NCBI GenBank assembly: GCA_021157815.1
Contig: JAGGVT010000044.1
Location: 1 to 6,909, forward strand
Direction of reading: 5' to 3'
Origin: a bacterium
GTDB taxonomy: Bacteria > JAJVIF01 > JAGGVT01
Length of the DNA stretch: 6,909 nucleotides
The position numbers and the translations under genes are program-made. Numbering within the stretch: the stretch's first letter is position 1; every line of letters starts with the position of its first letter. The notes under the pieces were generated by a model that worked only from the letters and a program-made list of their open reading frames with translations, made no database searches and had not been told where the DNA came from. Positions 29 through 6,815 of this stretch are shown piece by piece.

Positions 29-3000
29 ATGTTATGCTCCAGGTCATCTTATGCATTATTGCTGTTCTTTTTCGCTCTAATGTTGACATCGTGTTCATCT
101 GGAGGAGGCATTACAACACCATCGCCGGATGACAGTGCTTTCCAGGCGTCATCCTACTCCGATTTTCCAGTCGCGGTAAGTGGCTGGTTAGCGGATGGGA
201 GCCCGTCCGGTGGTACAGGAATGCTTGGAATATTCCAGGCGCATATTGATATTGCGAACCTGTCAGGTGAACTTGTGCCATTGAGAGATGGCGCACTTGC
301 CGATGTCATAGAAGCAATTGACATTACAGGATTCCTGACTGTTTCGCCTTGTTACGATTGTGTAAAACTTGAAAGCGTTTCGCTTAACTCATCCGGTAAT
401 CTTGTTCTGTCCATCGCGATTAAACATCCATTCCCGATGGGCAATCCTAGCAATCCGATTACCTCGATGAACCGTGCTGATCTGATTGTTTATAACGTTG
501 AAGGCATTATTGTTACTGACGGCGCGGGAATATACAATGCTCTGGGCGAGAGATATCACGAACCGCTGCTTGCTAATGCCGATGGTTACACCGCTTATCT
601 GGATTCATCTCTTGATGACATCCTGAATACGACAACGACAATTCATCCGTACATTCTCCACTTTGATGATTTTACATCCGGCAACTACAACGTGTCGTCT
701 CATCCTGAAACAGGATTCCCACCCGCTCCAACCGAGCCATCCGGTAATCTGGTTATGGGGCAGGGAGCGGATTTTGATTCGCAGGAATATGAATTCGACA
801 TTGCCGAGGATGTTAGTTTCGATTTCATTTATGCCATTAGCGCGACATATGGAATCGCGGCTGCAAGCAAACTTGAAAGATTTACACCGGCCGCGATGGT
901 TCCTCAGCACAATAAAAAAGCCGCGAGCACTGTCGAGATTGAGATTGTCAGTATGAACCTTATGAGCGGTAATCCGTTATCTGACGCGGATATTAATGTC
1001 AAAGTGCTTGATATGAACCATGGTGTCGCGGAAGGTTCAGGCCTTGATGAAATGCTTGCTGCCAGTGATGTCGCGCAGATTTCAATCATGGTGCCTGATG
1101 TCATGTCAACCCAAATTACGGATACCAATCCGTCTCCGGTTTCCGGTGCGCCTCGCGACCCGGCAGACCCGTTGACCTATCCCTATACGATTACCAACAG
1201 CGGCGATGCCGATGCGGGTGATTATTACGGTCTTGTCAAGGTTCTGGACAGCTATCCACCCGCACAAAACACACTTCCTCTTCTTGAAGGCATGGAGGGA
1301 ATCGAGCGGGTTGGTCCAACTGACAATCCACTGGATGGCTTGTTCGCAATAACTGAATTTGCCACCTATCAGGTGTTTCAGGTCTCTGTGGGTTATGGCT
1401 GCGGACCTATCACCGGCCAGATTGACTCACCGGAATGCCCGATAACGACATTTGTCAGTGGTCTCACACAGAATTTCGTAGTTTCTGCAGCGTCAGACAA
1501 CGGCGGAAATATTGTTGAATATCAAATGGATTACGATTATGACGGCACAACTTTTGACATTGACGCGTCAAACACGGATGGCATTTTCGATGATACAGGC
1601 CCATATGTAAATCCGAACTGCGGTACGCCGCCTGAGGACCCGGTAACAATTACTGTTGCTTTCAGGGCGACTGATGATTGCACGCCTCCAAATATAACCA
1701 TTTTCGCGGAATGCGAAATTACAGTTGACGTATGTGAGTCACCGCTTTATCTCTACGAACCTGATCCGGATAGATCATCACTGATTATTTCAGGCCCGAC
1801 AGTTGACCAGCCGGTTGATCCAGCCGGTGAACTTGATTTGGGAGTCTGTGAAAATGCAGGGGAGGCTGATATCGATGGCGTTTATGTATATGACGAATGG
1901 AATCAGATAAGCCGATTCGACCATGATTATGTGAATTCCATTTTCCAGGCGCCGGGACTGGTTCCCTCCAATGATACAGGTACGCATCCCCTTCCCGATG
2001 ATGGAATGCCGGGATACCGTCTTGATGTCGCTGAAAACGGTTACGTGATTTCTTCCTACTTCGACATGAATGAAACAATGGACCTGTCAGGTATTGATCC
2101 TCTCTTATATGATCCATTCCCCGAAGGAAATTTGTGGGTTCACTGGGAACCGACACTTCCCCGTCCGACCCAGATACCGCCTGATCCAGGCGACCCATGG
2201 CCGCATGATCCTTTCCTCGCGCTTGTATGCGTGGATACAACTGAACCACTTGAAAACCAGATTGCATGGGAAGGCTGGGATGAATCGAATCATGTTACTG
2301 TCAGCTCACCAGCGCCAGGCGATCCACAGGGGTCTGCCCCTTATGATCAGGCTGAGGATGTTCTTTCCGTGATGTTCAGAAATACGAATCCGGCATTAAT
2401 GGAACCCGGTACGCCTGATTTTGGCTATAGGATTATTTACTACGGCCATTATCCACCATATTATGTTGCTCCCACATTCTACACACTCTACGATTACGCT
2501 TGGAATCTTGGCGGCGTCAACGGAGAGGAAATAGTCGGTGTTGATAGATCAGACAAGGACTGGTTATTCATGTGTGTAAGCGGTCCAATGTTTGCCGCAT
2601 CTATCTCTTCAGGCTCAACAGAAAACCTGATTCTGCTTGATTGTAATCAACCCGGCAGCCAGGCATGGGTGCTTGATGTGGATACCGCGCTTGAAACACT
2701 TCTCGGTTATACGCTTGATGGCGCGATTCTCGATGTCGAGTGTGTGCCTTATGATGACAACAATCCAATCATTTTTGATGACGGCACTGGCGAGGAAGCT
2801 CCCCAGTTTGCCGCGCTTGGCGCAATCCTGCATGAAAATGGCCACATTTATCTGCTCGCTTTCGATGACACACCCGGCAACGAGGCGTTTATTTTGTTCC
2901 AGGATATTGATGGCACAACGGCGATTACCGGTGACCCCAAACATATCGATGTTGGTGAAACAACAATGGATATCCACGTGACCAGTTCCGATGGAACCAA

Positions 3001-3037
3001 CGCTTACGCAACAGTATTTACGTTAACTGAACAGTAA
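29..3037 (+). CDS. Large secreted lipoprotein, 1002 aa, with PKD-like region
   Basis: The protein is predicted to be exported and lipid-anchored; its function is unknown. Seen: a short n-region with one Arg (R5), a hydrophobic stretch at about residues 8-20, then the lipobox L19-T20-S21-C22 followed by Ser and a Gly-rich linker. Ser after the Cys would favour the outer membrane if the E. coli Lol rule applies. No other membrane segment is visible. Residues 45-455 are beta-rich with no family I can name, and include a CxxC pair (C108, C111). Residues about 459-569 resemble a PKD/Ig-like beta-sandwich (N-I-V-E-Y followed by D-Y-D-Y-D-G). Residues about 575-1002 are rich in short beta-strand and turn patterns and could be a propeller or further beta-sandwiches. 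Acidic D/N-rich loops suggest possible calcium binding (inference). The start is set by the strong ribosome site, and a terminator follows the stop, so the gene ends its transcript. No catalytic residues are recognised; a surface binding or structural role is most likely. Confidence 0.92.
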   Translation: MLCSRSSYALLLFFFALMLTSCSSGGGITTPSPDDSAFQASSYSDFPVAVSGWLADGSPSGGTGMLGIFQAHIDIANLSGELVPLRDGALADVIEAIDITGFLTVSPCYDCVKLESVSLNSSGNLVLSIAIKHPFPMGNPSNPITSMNRADLIVYNVEGIIVTDGAGIYNALGERYHEPLLANADGYTAYLDSSLDDILNTTTTIHPYILHFDDFTSGNYNVSSHPETGFPPAPTEPSGNLVMGQGADFDSQEYEFDIAEDVSFDFIYAISATYGIAAASKLERFTPAAMVPQHNKKAASTVEIEIVSMNLMSGNPLSDADINVKVLDMNHGVAEGSGLDEMLAASDVAQISIMVPDVMSTQITDTNPSPVSGAPRDPADPLTYPYTITNSGDADAGDYYGLVKVLDSYPPAQNTLPLLEGMEGIERVGPTDNPLDGLFAITEFATYQVFQVSVGYGCGPITGQIDSPECPITTFVSGLTQNFVVSAASDNGGNIVEYQMDYDYDGTTFDIDASNTDGIFDDTGPYVNPNCGTPPEDPVTITVAFRATDDCTPPNITIFAECEITVDVCESPLYLYEPDPDRSSLIISGPTVDQPVDPAGELDLGVCENAGEADIDGVYVYDEWNQISRFDHDYVNSIFQAPGLVPSNDTGTHPLPDDGMPGYRLDVAENGYVISSYFDMNETMDLSGIDPLLYDPFPEGNLWVHWEPTLPRPTQIPPDPGDPWPHDPFLALVCVDTTEPLENQIAWEGWDESNHVTVSSPAPGDPQGSAPYDQAEDVLSVMFRNTNPALMEPGTPDFGYRIIYYGHYPPYYVAPTFYTLYDYAWNLGGVNGEEIVGVDRSDKDWLFMCVSGPMFAASISSGSTENLILLDCNQPGSQAWVLDVDTALETLLGYTLDGAILDVECVPYDDNNPIIFDDGTGEEAPQFAALGAILHENGHIYLLAFDDTPGNEAFILFQDIDGTTAITGDPKHIDVGETTMDIHVTSSDGTNAYATVFTLTEQ

Positions 3038-3212: not shown

Positions 3213-3270
3213 GAATCTATTTGAGAGGTCTCTTTATTGATTGTTGATTAACGCTGTTTACTCCGATAAA

Positions 3271-4380
3271 ATGAACGCAATGCCAAAACAGAATCCGCGT
3301 AAACCGAAAGTCCTGAATGTTGGCTACCATCCGCCTCCACCCGGCGGCATGGCTAATTTCATAGATAATTTCGAGCAAAGCGGAATAAAAGATCTGTATC
3401 AGATTCGCGGATTTGATACAGATTATCCTCGATGGCTGAAAAAACTGCGACCGCTGACCGTGCTGTATCTTCCCATCATGTACCTGCACTATTTGTGGGT
3501 GCTAATCACGTTCCAACCAGATGTTATCCATATTCACACCCCGGCTTTCAACGCGTTTTATAAACATTCAGTTTTTGTAAAAATTGCCAGAGAGAGAAAA
3601 ATCCCAATCGCGTTTCATATTCATGCGGGGAAATTCAAGGAATTTTACGACAACCTGAAGGAATCACGCAAACGGGATGTGCGCAATAAACTAAAGCAGG
3701 CGGATATTCTTATAGTGCTTTCACATTATTGGAAGGATTTTTTCACCGGCCTTTACCCATCCGAAAAAATCAGAGTTGTTGAAAACGGAATCCCGGCTGA
3801 TAAATTCAGCCCGGCGGATAAAGCCAACCAGACGAAACCCCCGAACTTCATATATGTCGGAAGACTGCTTGAACAGAAGGGAATTGACGAATTACTCGAA
3901 GCCGCCCGTGAGGTTTTCAAGGTTTATCCTGATTCGCATCTGACAATCGCAGGTGGTGAGGAGGCCGCGAGATTTAAACGGAAATCCGATGAATTGGGAT
4001 TATCCGAAAACATAACTTTCACCGGGGAGGTAGTCGGGAATAGCCTTATCGAATTATACCAGAGCGCGGATATTTTTGTCCTGCCGTCGCACGCCGAGGG
4101 AATGCCTCTTGTTTTGCTTGAGGCGATGTCGGTTGGGCTTGCATGTATCGCAACAAATGTCGGGGCTATTCCGGAGGTTTTGAACGAGTCAGGTGGAATC
4201 ATTATTCCGCCAAAGGATGTTCACGCGCTTAAAAACGCGATGCTTGAACTGGCAGGCAATCCGGATAAGGTTAATTCAATGGGTATCGTGAATCGTAACA
4301 TTATCCAGAGAGATTTTTCCTTCGATGTCGTGGCTGAAAAAATGCGAAAAATCTATAATGAGCTGATTCTTGCTAATTAA
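3271..4380 (+). CDS. GT4-family glycosyltransferase (GT-B fold)
   Basis: Predicted cytoplasmic retaining glycosyltransferase that moves a sugar from a nucleotide-sugar donor to a glycan or lipid-linked acceptor. Such enzymes usually serve polysaccharide, O-antigen or exopolysaccharide assembly; donor and acceptor cannot be read from sequence. Numbering from the ATG at 3271 (369 aa): the N-terminal acceptor domain has a Pro/Gly loop (P21-G26, followed by M-A-N-F), a D-V-I-H-I-H-T-P strand (84-91) and H-I-H-A-G (116-120). The C-terminal donor domain starts near 191 with Y-V-G-R-L-L-E-Q-K-G (R198 and K203 match the conserved donor-phosphate Arg and Lys). It carries the E-x7-E motif at E276 and E284 within H-A-E-G-M-P-L-V-L-L-E. 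Length is normal for the family and the gene is intact. The start is uncertain: a TTG at 3241 has GAGAGG 12 bases ahead, while ATGs at 3271 and 3280 lack a clear ribosome site but better fit the usual short N-terminus before the first beta-strand. No neighbouring sugar genes are in the window. Confidence 0.93.
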   Translation: MNAMPKQNPRKPKVLNVGYHPPPPGGMANFIDNFEQSGIKDLYQIRGFDTDYPRWLKKLRPLTVLYLPIMYLHYLWVLITFQPDVIHIHTPAFNAFYKHSVFVKIARERKIPIAFHIHAGKFKEFYDNLKESRKRDVRNKLKQADILIVLSHYWKDFFTGLYPSEKIRVVENGIPADKFSPADKANQTKPPNFIYVGRLLEQKGIDELLEAAREVFKVYPDSHLTIAGGEEAARFKRKSDELGLSENITFTGEVVGNSLIELYQSADIFVLPSHAEGMPLVLLEAMSVGLACIATNVGAIPEVLNESGGIIIPPKDVHALKNAMLELAGNPDKVNSMGIVNRNIIQRDFSFDVVAEKMRKIYNELILAN

Positions 4381-4577: not shown

Positions 4578-6815
4578 ATGAGCAACCGAAAAAGCAAGAA
4601 AACAAATGATACTTCCTCTCAGGGAAGTGGTTCAGCAGGGATAATAATTATAATCGTGATTCTCCTTTGCGCGTTTGGAGGTTTTCTGCATGTCTCCTCG
4701 CGTTCAGGATATTGTTCGAAATGCCACGAGATGCAGCCATATGTTGAAACCTGGGCTGTTTCCAACCACAAAGATGTTTCATGCGTAAAATGCCATTATT
4801 CACCGGGGAGTAAATCCGCATTCCGAAGCAAGTTCATTGGCGCTCGGATGCATCTTAAAAAACTCACTCAGTCCTGGTCCGGCCGGCGCCCTCTGGCGCA
4901 TGTTCGTGACAGTTCATGCTCGACCGATTCATGTCATCCAAGTGCTGATATGCAGGCGCCGATTATTCATGAAAATGTCTCTTTCAGACATACTTCACAC
5001 ATGGGATCTCAAAGGCGCGGGCAACAGCTGGCATGCACATCGTGCCATTCCGAGATTGTGCATGGTGACGTAAGAACCATTACAAACGAAACTTGTTTTT
5101 TATGCCATCTCAGGCCAGTCGAGGGCGAGACTCTTGAAACCAGTTTCATGGCAAAATGCACGAACTGCCATAATCCGCCATCGAAGATTCTATCGAGGAA
5201 TGGAATCGAGATTAATCATCTTGACGAAAAAACAGCCGGCATGAAATGCACTCAATGCCATCATTTGATTGCATCCGGTGACGGCGATGCGCCGGTTGTT
5301 CGATGCCTCCAGTGCCATTCGGATGTCGATGTGATTAATAAAATCGAGGATGTCGCTTTTCTGCATGATACTCATGTTACAAAACGCGGCATGGTGTGTT
5401 CGAGATGCCATGACAAGATAGAACACAAAATGCCTGAGATTAACGAGACTATTCCAGCTGACTGCGAATCGTGCCATCCGGGACATCATGAGGCGCAGAC
5501 GCTGCTTTACAATACTTATTCATTTAATGAGGACGAGAGTTACGCGTCAGCCGAATTTATGGCTCATATCGCCTGTAAATCCTGCCATATTCACAAGGTC
5601 GGCGACAGGTTGGACAAGGATGGAATCAACTATCTTGCAAGCGCGCAATCGTGTAATACATGCCATTATTCCCAATTCGGCAGTTTCCTTGAGGAATGGA
5701 GACGTTCAATAGATCGCATGCTGAACGATGTTCGTTCAGAAATCCTGATAACAAAACCTAAAATCAAAGCAACGTCATTTTCTGTAAAGAAAAAAGAGGA
5801 ATTTACAAAACTGCTCGATGATGCCGAAATGAAACTTCTTCTGGTTGAGCGTGGCAAGAGTGTCCATAATATAAGTTATTGCGATACGTTGATAAGGCGG
5901 GCGCATGATAAGGTCAATCAGGTGCTTTCAGATATCGGTGCGAAAACAATCGAGTCGGAAAGAATAGAGGCATACAGGTTCGCATCCAAAGAGCAGTGCA
6001 ACATGTGCCATTTCGGGATCGCGGATCACACAACCCTCTTTGGCTCAATATCTTTTCCCCATTCACCGCATTTGGCTGAAGGAAACCTGCCGTGTACAAC
6101 TTGTCACGTTTTTACATCCAGCTGGGAGCCTCACGGTGAACTTAAATTCAAGGATTCCGAGGGATGCAAGCAATGCCATGGCAAGGACTCCGGATGCGTG
6201 TCGTGCCACAGCGGATTTGAATCAACGCCAATCTCAGTTTATGGAAAGACATTCATCCACAAGCCGCATCTTGATAACGGTGATTTAAAATGCCTCGATT
6301 GCCATTTCCCGGAATCAGATGAAACCACACATGGCCAGTTGCGACTTGAGAGAGCATCCGATTGCACAAAATGCCATCACGGACCTGAGCAGGAATTAAT
6401 CTGTGCGGATTGCCATAATGTACAGGCAAAGCTACAAGATGGGAAAATTCCGTATTCGGATATTTTAAATACGGGATCGCATGATTTCTCCTGCGATAAA
6501 TGCCACGATATGTCATCAAAATACAATCGCACCGTTGTCATTCGGAAATGCGCCGGATGCCATGATAGTTCTTATACGGGCAAAGTTGATAAATGGCTTG
6601 CGGAGTCTAAAAAAGGGCTTCTGAAAATCAGCAACCTGATTAAACGGGCAAATAAAATCAGCCTGACAAAAAAACAGGCTGAGGAACTTGAAAGAATCAC
6701 CAAACGGGCAAGGTTCCTTTCGAAAGATCCAGTTCCGGGTGTTCATAATTATGATCTGTGGGGTGATATCCTGACAAGGGATATCGAAACGCTTCGTGAA
6801 TGGCTGGGCGATTAA
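4578..6815 (+). CDS. NapC/NrfH-anchored 21-heme c-type cytochrome
   Basis: Predicted inner-membrane cytochrome facing the periplasm that takes electrons from the quinol pool and passes them along a heme chain. Seen (745 aa): a basic, Ser-rich cytoplasmic tail, one TM helix (about 21-38), then 20 CxxCH motifs whose first Cys is at 46, 69, 153, 173, 194, 224, 243, 274, 296, 333, 359, 474, 506, 530, 540, 572, 596, 609, 639 and 658. One CX4CH is at C114-H120. The TM helix, CSKCHEM at 46-52 (the CxxCHxM pattern of NrfH heme 1), the W-x3-S-x-H segment and the second CxxCH match the NapC/NirT/NrfH head. Beyond it the protein repeats an F-x-H-x2-H / CxxCH / H / CxxCH module at about 134-179, 259-302, 491-546 and 557-615. 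Heme-free helical segments at 364-473 and 663-745 each contain V-H-N (429-431, 722-724). The 29 His outside the motifs are enough for bis-His ligation of most hemes. No CxxCK is present, so it is not a normal NrfA. NapC/NrfH proteins have about 4-5 hemes and 150-200 aa, so this is a greatly enlarged relative. AGGAA at 4562-4566 is a modest ribosome site. The final electron acceptor is unknown. Confidence 0.95.
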   Translation: MSNRKSKKTNDTSSQGSGSAGIIIIIVILLCAFGGFLHVSSRSGYCSKCHEMQPYVETWAVSNHKDVSCVKCHYSPGSKSAFRSKFIGARMHLKKLTQSWSGRRPLAHVRDSSCSTDSCHPSADMQAPIIHENVSFRHTSHMGSQRRGQQLACTSCHSEIVHGDVRTITNETCFLCHLRPVEGETLETSFMAKCTNCHNPPSKILSRNGIEINHLDEKTAGMKCTQCHHLIASGDGDAPVVRCLQCHSDVDVINKIEDVAFLHDTHVTKRGMVCSRCHDKIEHKMPEINETIPADCESCHPGHHEAQTLLYNTYSFNEDESYASAEFMAHIACKSCHIHKVGDRLDKDGINYLASAQSCNTCHYSQFGSFLEEWRRSIDRMLNDVRSEILITKPKIKATSFSVKKKEEFTKLLDDAEMKLLLVERGKSVHNISYCDTLIRRAHDKVNQVLSDIGAKTIESERIEAYRFASKEQCNMCHFGIADHTTLFGSISFPHSPHLAEGNLPCTTCHVFTSSWEPHGELKFKDSEGCKQCHGKDSGCVSCHSGFESTPISVYGKTFIHKPHLDNGDLKCLDCHFPESDETTHGQLRLERASDCTKCHHGPEQELICADCHNVQAKLQDGKIPYSDILNTGSHDFSCDKCHDMSSKYNRTVVIRKCAGCHDSSYTGKVDKWLAESKKGLLKISNLIKRANKISLTKKQAEELERITKRARFLSKDPVPGVHNYDLWGDILTRDIETLREWLGD
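6048..6422 (+). repeat. Tandem duplicated triheme module within the cytochrome
   Basis: Residues 491-546 and 557-615 are two adjacent copies of the same unit: F-x-H-x-P-H-L, then CxxCH, then H-G-x-L, then CxxCH and a closely following CxxCH. The first 44 residues align without a gap, and I count 17 identities by hand, including all heme ligands. The spacing before the third heme differs by 3 residues. This shows growth of the protein by in-frame duplication followed by divergence. Confidence 0.8.

Follow-up and report, generated by a model that had tools for sequence, protein, structure and literature searches.

A predicted 21-heme cytochrome with an NrfH-like head and its widespread family of 18-heme relatives

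A 21-heme gene with an NrfH-like head

The window, by which we mean the whole stretch of DNA analysed, is 6,909 bases long and coincides exactly with its contig. On the forward strand it carries an open reading frame for a 745-amino-acid protein, P0001, whose translation contains 20 CxxCH motifs and one CX4CH motif (C114-H120). For comparison, shuffles of P0001 with the same composition contain a mean of 0.17 and a maximum of 3 CxxCH motifs. One strong hydrophobic segment is present at approximately residues 18-40 (hydropathy of 2.75 per residue over 19 residues), and the best value elsewhere, past this segment, is 0.64. A sequence-only reading of the window had described this same arrangement, with the motifs following a single TM helix, and motif count, hydropathy and the AF2 model all agree with it. 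In Pfam searches the N-terminus matches PF03264 and the remainder of the protein matches cytochrome c7/c3 families. P0001 contains no CxxCK motif. The gene, its TM helix and its heme sites are located as follows (60/60 denotes alignment in all rows of a 60-sequence family alignment):

4578..6815, +, coding sequence of the 21-heme cytochrome P0001, 745 aa (ORF and motif count)
4629..4697, +, single N-terminal TM helix, residues 18-40 (AF2 helix H18-40, hydropathy peak)
4713..4727, +, heme 1, CSKCH (60/60)
4782..4796, +, heme 2, CVKCH (60/60)
4917..4937, +, heme 3, CSTDSCH, a CX4CH motif (cysteines and His 60/60)
5034..5048, +, heme 4, CTSCH (60/60)
5094..5108, +, heme 5, CFLCH (60/60)
5157..5171, +, heme 6, CTNCH (60/60)
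5247..5261, +, heme 7, CTQCH (60/60)
5304..5318, +, heme 8, CLQCH (60/60)
5397..5411, +, heme 9, CSRCH (60/60)
5463..5477, +, heme 10, CESCH (60/60)
5574..5588, +, heme 11, CKSCH (60/60)
5652..5666, +, heme 12, CNTCH (60/60)
5997..6011, +, heme 13, CNMCH (60/60)
6093-6107, 6165-6179 and 6195-6209, +, hemes 14-16 (three-heme cassette copy 1)
6291-6305, 6363-6377 and 6402-6416, +, hemes 17-19 (three-heme cassette copy 2)
6492..6506, +, heme 20, CDKCH (60/60)
6549..6563, +, heme 21, CAGCH (60/60)

Upstream of P0001 lie a GT4 glycosyltransferase gene (window 3241-4380; Pfam) and a lipoprotein-like ORF of 1002 aa (window 29-3037), for which no Pfam or NCBIfam match was found. A stretch weakly resembling the latter (24% over 326 aa) is present on another host contig, L038. 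Scans for promoters and terminators returned sites no more numerous than in shuffles. The earlier observation that no porin or reductase is encoded in the window is true of the 6909-base contig, but the contig ends at the window edges, so that the missing genes tell of the assembly rather than of the organism. Tetranucleotide correlation between this contig and five others of the same genome is 0.83-0.92, compared with 0.44-0.80 for eight loci of other organisms. Mis-binning is unlikely because the profile is better fitted by contigs of its own genome. The P0001 gene is absent from three genomes of the same class searched at E 1e-10, and the sole result of a plasmid search was one weak NapC/NirT match confined to the head.

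The head itself, together with the residues that bear on its possible quinol site, is located as follows:

4626..5069, +, NrfH-like head, residues 17-164, hemes 1-4 (NrfH fold match, TIGR03153, PF03264)
4731..4733, +, M52 of CxxCHxM, equivalent to NrfH Met49, heme-1 ligand (60/60)
4830..4832, +, K85, equivalent to Lys82 of the NrfH quinol site (K in 59/60, R in one)
4851..4853, +, H92, aligned to NrfH Asp89 in the family alignment (H only here)
5061..5072, +, H162-V165 (V in place of a His found in 59/60, column 272)

Predicted residues 17-164 align with NrfH (2vr0) at Z 8.1 with 129 aligned (VIA-align on the AF2 model). The profile check proposed in the sequence-only reading gives a PF03264 match of 28.7 bits, above the cut-off of 24.1, and the genome-level search gives 33.2 bits. 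P0001 does not reach the cut-off of TIGR03153, the NrfH equivalog model (40.7 vs 134.2 bits), although all 60 aligned family members match this model and 59 of them match PF03264. The family profile finds the NrfH structure in the PDB at 1.5e-12. As in NrfH, heme 1 carries a CxxCHxM motif (M52), such that the description of an NrfH-like first heme stands. So does the fusion of an NrfH-like anchor with a long heme array in a single chain, on the evidence of the NrfH profile, the sequence and a fold match that extends to residue ~164.

The proposal that the head oxidises quinol fares less evenly. P0001 has M52, H64 and K85 at the positions of Met49, His61 and Lys82 in D. vulgaris NrfH, and these residues are kept in 60, 60 and 59 of the 60 sequences, respectively. 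However, the equivalent of NrfH Asp89, reported to be essential for menaquinol oxidation (PMC10654088), is not acidic: this column holds V, L or I in 58 of 60 sequences, T in one, and H92 in the window protein. A gapped pairwise alignment places M91, and not H92, at this position, and an acidic residue is absent from P0001 in both alignments. Further departures near the head are Y95K (Y in 59/60), W106L (W in 54/60) and E108H (E or D in 59/60), and three residues upstream of V165 the protein has a His (H162) where Gln is found in 58/60. Moreover, many relatives encode an adjacent Rieske/cytochrome b pair, which might be the real quinol oxidase. Judged from these residues, quinol oxidation by the head is not established, the Asp89 position being hydrophobic in nearly all relatives.

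Repeated heme units and the family of relatives

Beyond hemes 1-7, P0001 consists of two repeat units, the second of which contains a duplicated cassette:

5286..5924, +, repeat unit A, residues 237-449, five hemes and a three-helix bundle with VHNxxY
5979..6812, +, repeat unit B, residues 468-745, nine hemes and a terminal helical bundle
6039..6236, +, three-heme cassette copy 1, residues 488-553 (aligned to copy 2)
6237..6443, +, three-heme cassette copy 2, residues 554-622 (aligned to copy 1)
6573..6806, +, C-terminal helical bundle with a VHN motif, residues 666-743 (AF2, pLDDT ~90)

Units A and B are homologous (hhalign probability 99.8, E 4e-30, 195 columns), and unit B has nine hemes in P0001 versus six in the common family form. 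The cassette copies align with a score of 93, whereas shuffles in which C and H were held fixed reach a mean of 46.9 (sd 13.7, max 89, n=1000), and in the 60-row alignment hardly any other sequence shares the motifs that P0001 has at residues 530, 540 and 572. On this comparison of the copies, the three extra hemes of P0001 are a tandem copy of a three-heme unit. Three relatives (L042, L050 and L101) also have three additional hemes in this unit, with four more after it in L101. Heme number rises from 18 to 21 at three separated places in the tree (the window protein, L042 and L050) and stands at 25 in L101. These gains look independent because they are scattered on the tree and because L047, a close sister of L042, has 18 hemes.

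The AF2 model of P0001, computed without hemes, has a mean pLDDT of 73.9. When compared by VIA-align, residues 288-455 of this model match the ends of NrfA and octaheme nitrite reductases (Z 7-8), and residues 591-745 give matches at Z 10-10.8 that include MccA (Z 10.7) and OcwA (Z 10.0). A separate model of residues 100-462 agrees with the full model (MccA Z 12.5, OcwA Z 11.9). Our statements on fold rest on VIA-align Z values of 8-12.5, which helical bundles inflate according to the aligner's own warning, and Foldseek returned nothing under E 0.001 for either model. Such matches are weak alone for helical bundles, but they agree with the sequence profile matches, in which the family profile finds OcwA at 2.3e-23 and the S-layer cytochrome 6qvm at 1.2e-16 in the PDB, both of them Gram-positive proteins. 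By these profile comparisons, the family core begins with an NrfH-like head, continues through three linking hemes and ends in two copies of an OcwA/NrfA-like heme-and-helix unit.

Relatives occur in 8 of 59 other genomes, some with 12 hemes (~470 aa) and some with 18 (~670 aa). A scan of GTDB genomes yielded 294 confirmed stretches of the family; the query was a four-sequence alignment, as a nine-sequence alignment held no stretch conserved enough. The best 80 of the 294 come from Zixibacteria, Gemmatimonadota, Aminicenantes, Ignavibacteria, Marinimicrobia, Calditrichota, Bipolaricaulota, Acidobacteriota, TA06 and others. Eighteen hemes occupy identical columns in 60 of 60 aligned sequences, and most members are of about equal length, so that the architecture is a family trait rather than a lone curiosity. 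Sixteen distal ligand candidates are found family-wide for the eighteen core hemes. The constancy of these hemes and of most distal His residues in 60 divergent sequences implies strong selection on the array.

P0001 has the 18 core hemes, M52, the head and the duplicated heme-helix unit of this family. It forms the longest branch of the tree (3.74), with an uncertain placement near Zixibacteria, and is, by its sequence, an unusually divergent and enlarged member of a widespread unnamed 18-heme family. NCBIfam and Pfam contain no model for the whole protein, and NCBIfam matches fall far below their cut-offs. No paper describing an NrfH-headed 18-heme family was found in the literature searched, nor was any characterised homologue of equal size, and PDB matches are partial. 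The 12-heme relatives were considered as candidates for Geobacter CbcC or GSU2935. The reading frame of one of them (L017:8200-10002, - strand) runs upstream into response-regulator-like receiver sequence, due either to fusion or to read-through. Two further loci (L024:5582-7531, - strand, and L025:7689-9518, + strand) encode long multi-TM proteins that combine eight hemes with an NrfH-like head and are ImcH-like in layout, apparently with many more TM segments.

Gene neighbourhoods and the host's electron-transfer genes

Among 71 loci of relatives for which the ORF was recovered, cytochrome b is present in 35, Rieske in 29, NrfD in 21, FeS genes in 22 and another multiheme cytochrome in 65, with cytochrome b on the same strand and within 6 kb in 32. 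Because many contigs are short, the true counts may be higher, and the labels derive from clustering and the reading of representatives rather than from a profile search of each neighbour. A common gene order is Rieske, cytochrome b, 9-heme, 18-heme. At L112, from a MAG labelled Caldithrix abyssi, an 18-heme NrfH-headed gene faces a cluster of 9-heme, cytochrome b and Rieske genes. According to the genome paper of C. abyssi, the species has Rieske and cytochrome b genes but no NapC, and the gene beside cytochrome b is called an epsilon-Hao (PMC5317091). Cytochrome b was undetected in some family-bearing genomes, including the near-complete G010 and G023; these have 18-heme relatives, and thus the protein need not depend on a cytochrome b. 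A 433-aa barrel-like gene is present in seven loci, nearly all with 14-heme and 7-heme cytochromes, and this set could possibly form an outer-membrane conduit. Eight Ignavibacteria-type clusters with the 18-heme gene (L074, L081, L082, L093, L094, L106, L108 and L119) also contain 4-heme, conserved 433-aa barrel-like, 14-heme and 7-heme genes, again a candidate conduit.

Neither Rieske nor bc-type cytochrome b was detected in the host draft genome (~91% complete) or on the contig, and the host likewise yielded no NrfA. The host genome has no second PF03264 protein, which makes P0001 its only NapC-type candidate link. An MtrB-type porin (PF11854) was not found in the host, although barrels are easily missed, and a search of the host for the relatives' barrel family, also negative, shows little because it had no positive control. 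The host does encode a cytochrome c assembly protein and two molybdopterin oxidoreductases. At L037 (G000:C206, 4883-10831) it carries Hmc-like FeS and NrfD genes (HmcB/HmcC-like), a possible second quinone link, clustered with a 13-heme cytochrome that has an octaheme tetrathionate-reductase-like part, an 18-heme cytochrome and a 4-heme protein. An HAO-like octaheme protein (PF13447, 118 bits) is encoded near a contig end at L038 (G000:C61, 6550-7911, - strand) and is a possible reductase partner. Long proteins with a four-heme cytochrome part at the end are found at L039:3488-4945, where the N-terminal part appears phosphoesterase-like by eye, and at L041:7842-9548.

Proposed role and comparison with named systems

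The probable function of P0001 is to move respiratory electrons outward from the inner membrane. We see about an even chance that it serves as an inner-membrane-anchored periplasmic wire fed from menaquinol, either directly or via an NrfD/Hmc-like complex. The anchor, the homology of the head, the 21 heme sites, the duplicated unit and the tandem growth of the last unit, as read from the sequence, form the frame of this proposal. The TM helix and NrfH-like tetraheme head would sit at the membrane with the array facing the periplasm, and the three linking hemes and the two homologous OcwA/NrfA-like units (five and nine hemes) would extend from the head. Menaquinol electrons would enter at head heme 1, perhaps through direct quinol oxidation there, flow outward along a presumably continuous chain that might be of considerable length, and exit at the C-terminal end to a putative periplasmic or outer-membrane acceptor. 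For this host, we prefer oxidation of quinol by the head itself because no bc complex was found. Conversely, the loss of NrfH Asp89 speaks against a wire that is fed directly, and the host's Hmc-like set may be a rival quinone link. The negative porin searches and the modest mean pLDDT of the heme-free AF2 model also weigh against the wire.

Possible, if less likely, is an arrangement in which the head is solely an anchor or relay and a membrane partner oxidises quinol and feeds the wire, this partner being Rieske/cytochrome b in many relatives and an NrfD/Hmc-type complex in the host. Such a division of labor is favored by the cytochrome b and Rieske genes of the relatives (35/71 and 29/71 loci), by the 32 cases of a nearby same-strand cytochrome b, by NrfD and FeS genes in 21-22 loci, by the HmcB/HmcC-like genes of the host and by the absence of Asp89 across the family. 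However, the host's NrfD set is on a different contig from P0001, and the NrfH-site Met, His and Lys are kept almost without exception, which would not obviously be needed by a mere anchor. We regard as doubtful the idea that the lineage lost the Rieske/cytochrome b partner typical of its relatives and that the wire then became a quinol oxidase in its own right, with H92 replacing Asp89 at heme 1, the Y95K/W106L/E108H changes and the added three-heme cassette. If true, a single polypeptide would link the quinol pool to the distal side of the periplasm.

The wire might instead run inward, with outside or periplasmic donors reducing quinone. Homologues of CymA and CbcL are present in metal oxidisers as well as in metal reducers (PMC6295460), and the host's Hmc/Qrc-like set could also work with quinones, but inward flow seems improbable given that neither an iron-oxidation system nor any other donor system was identified and that few relatives are cultured. 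It is quite improbable that P0001 is itself a terminal reductase of nitrite, hydroxylamine, sulfite or metal. Residues 288-455 and 591-745 do have fold matches to MccA, OcwA, NrfA and HAO, and up to two core hemes lack a distal ligand candidate, yet the matches are limited to the last hemes and helices, outside the catalytic heme region, and the CxxCK motif is absent. A decaying or mis-binned gene, as the long branch and the missing His at residue 165, constant elsewhere in the family, might suggest, is extremely improbable in view of the open 745-aa frame, the 18 intact core hemes and a composition that fits the host.

Aside from the proposed role of P0001 as a menaquinol-fed wire, the relatives make up a large unnamed family with an NrfH-type anchor and at least 14 further hemes, beside bc-type genes in many phyla. 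The family offers a defined protein for testing a link between the menaquinol pool and a multiheme periplasmic chain without cytochrome c1, and the three-heme cassette shows how heme wires may lengthen.

P0001 resembles NrfH in its one N-terminal TM helix, CxxCHxM heme 1, His61 and Lys82 equivalents and predicted fold. The four-heme NrfH passes its electrons to NrfA, whereas P0001 has 17 further hemes in the same chain, a CX4CH motif at heme 3 and no Asp89 equivalent. More generally, NapC/NrfH quinol dehydrogenases are small, with four or five hemes, compared with 21 hemes in 745 aa. OcwA (6i5b) and the Carboxydothermus S-layer cytochrome (6qvm) are the best PDB profile matches to the heme-helix units and share the end fold, but they belong to the cell wall or S-layer and lack an NrfH head. 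NrfA, HAO and MccA likewise match P0001, which has no CxxCK, only in the end fold. P0001 has no match to the NCBIfam model for ExtM, the later name of GSU2935 (PMC13194489), and does not reach the cut-off of the DmsE/MtrA decaheme model TIGR03508 (40.6 vs 192.2 bits).

By gene order alone, many family loci resemble Geobacter GSU2930-2937, a Rieske/cytochrome b cluster with 10- and 12-heme genes (PMC2825233), and the Kuenenia (anammox) complexes of Rieske/cytochrome b with multiheme subunits (PMC12954380). The nearest described fusion is ImcH of Geobacter, a proposed inner-membrane quinol oxidase in extracellular electron transfer with three TM segments, 6-10 hemes and a CX3CH first motif (PMC6295460). 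As in P0001, a NapC/NirT-like region is prolonged by more hemes in one chain, but P0001 has one TM helix, no CX3CH motif, a CX4CH motif at heme 3 and 21 hemes.
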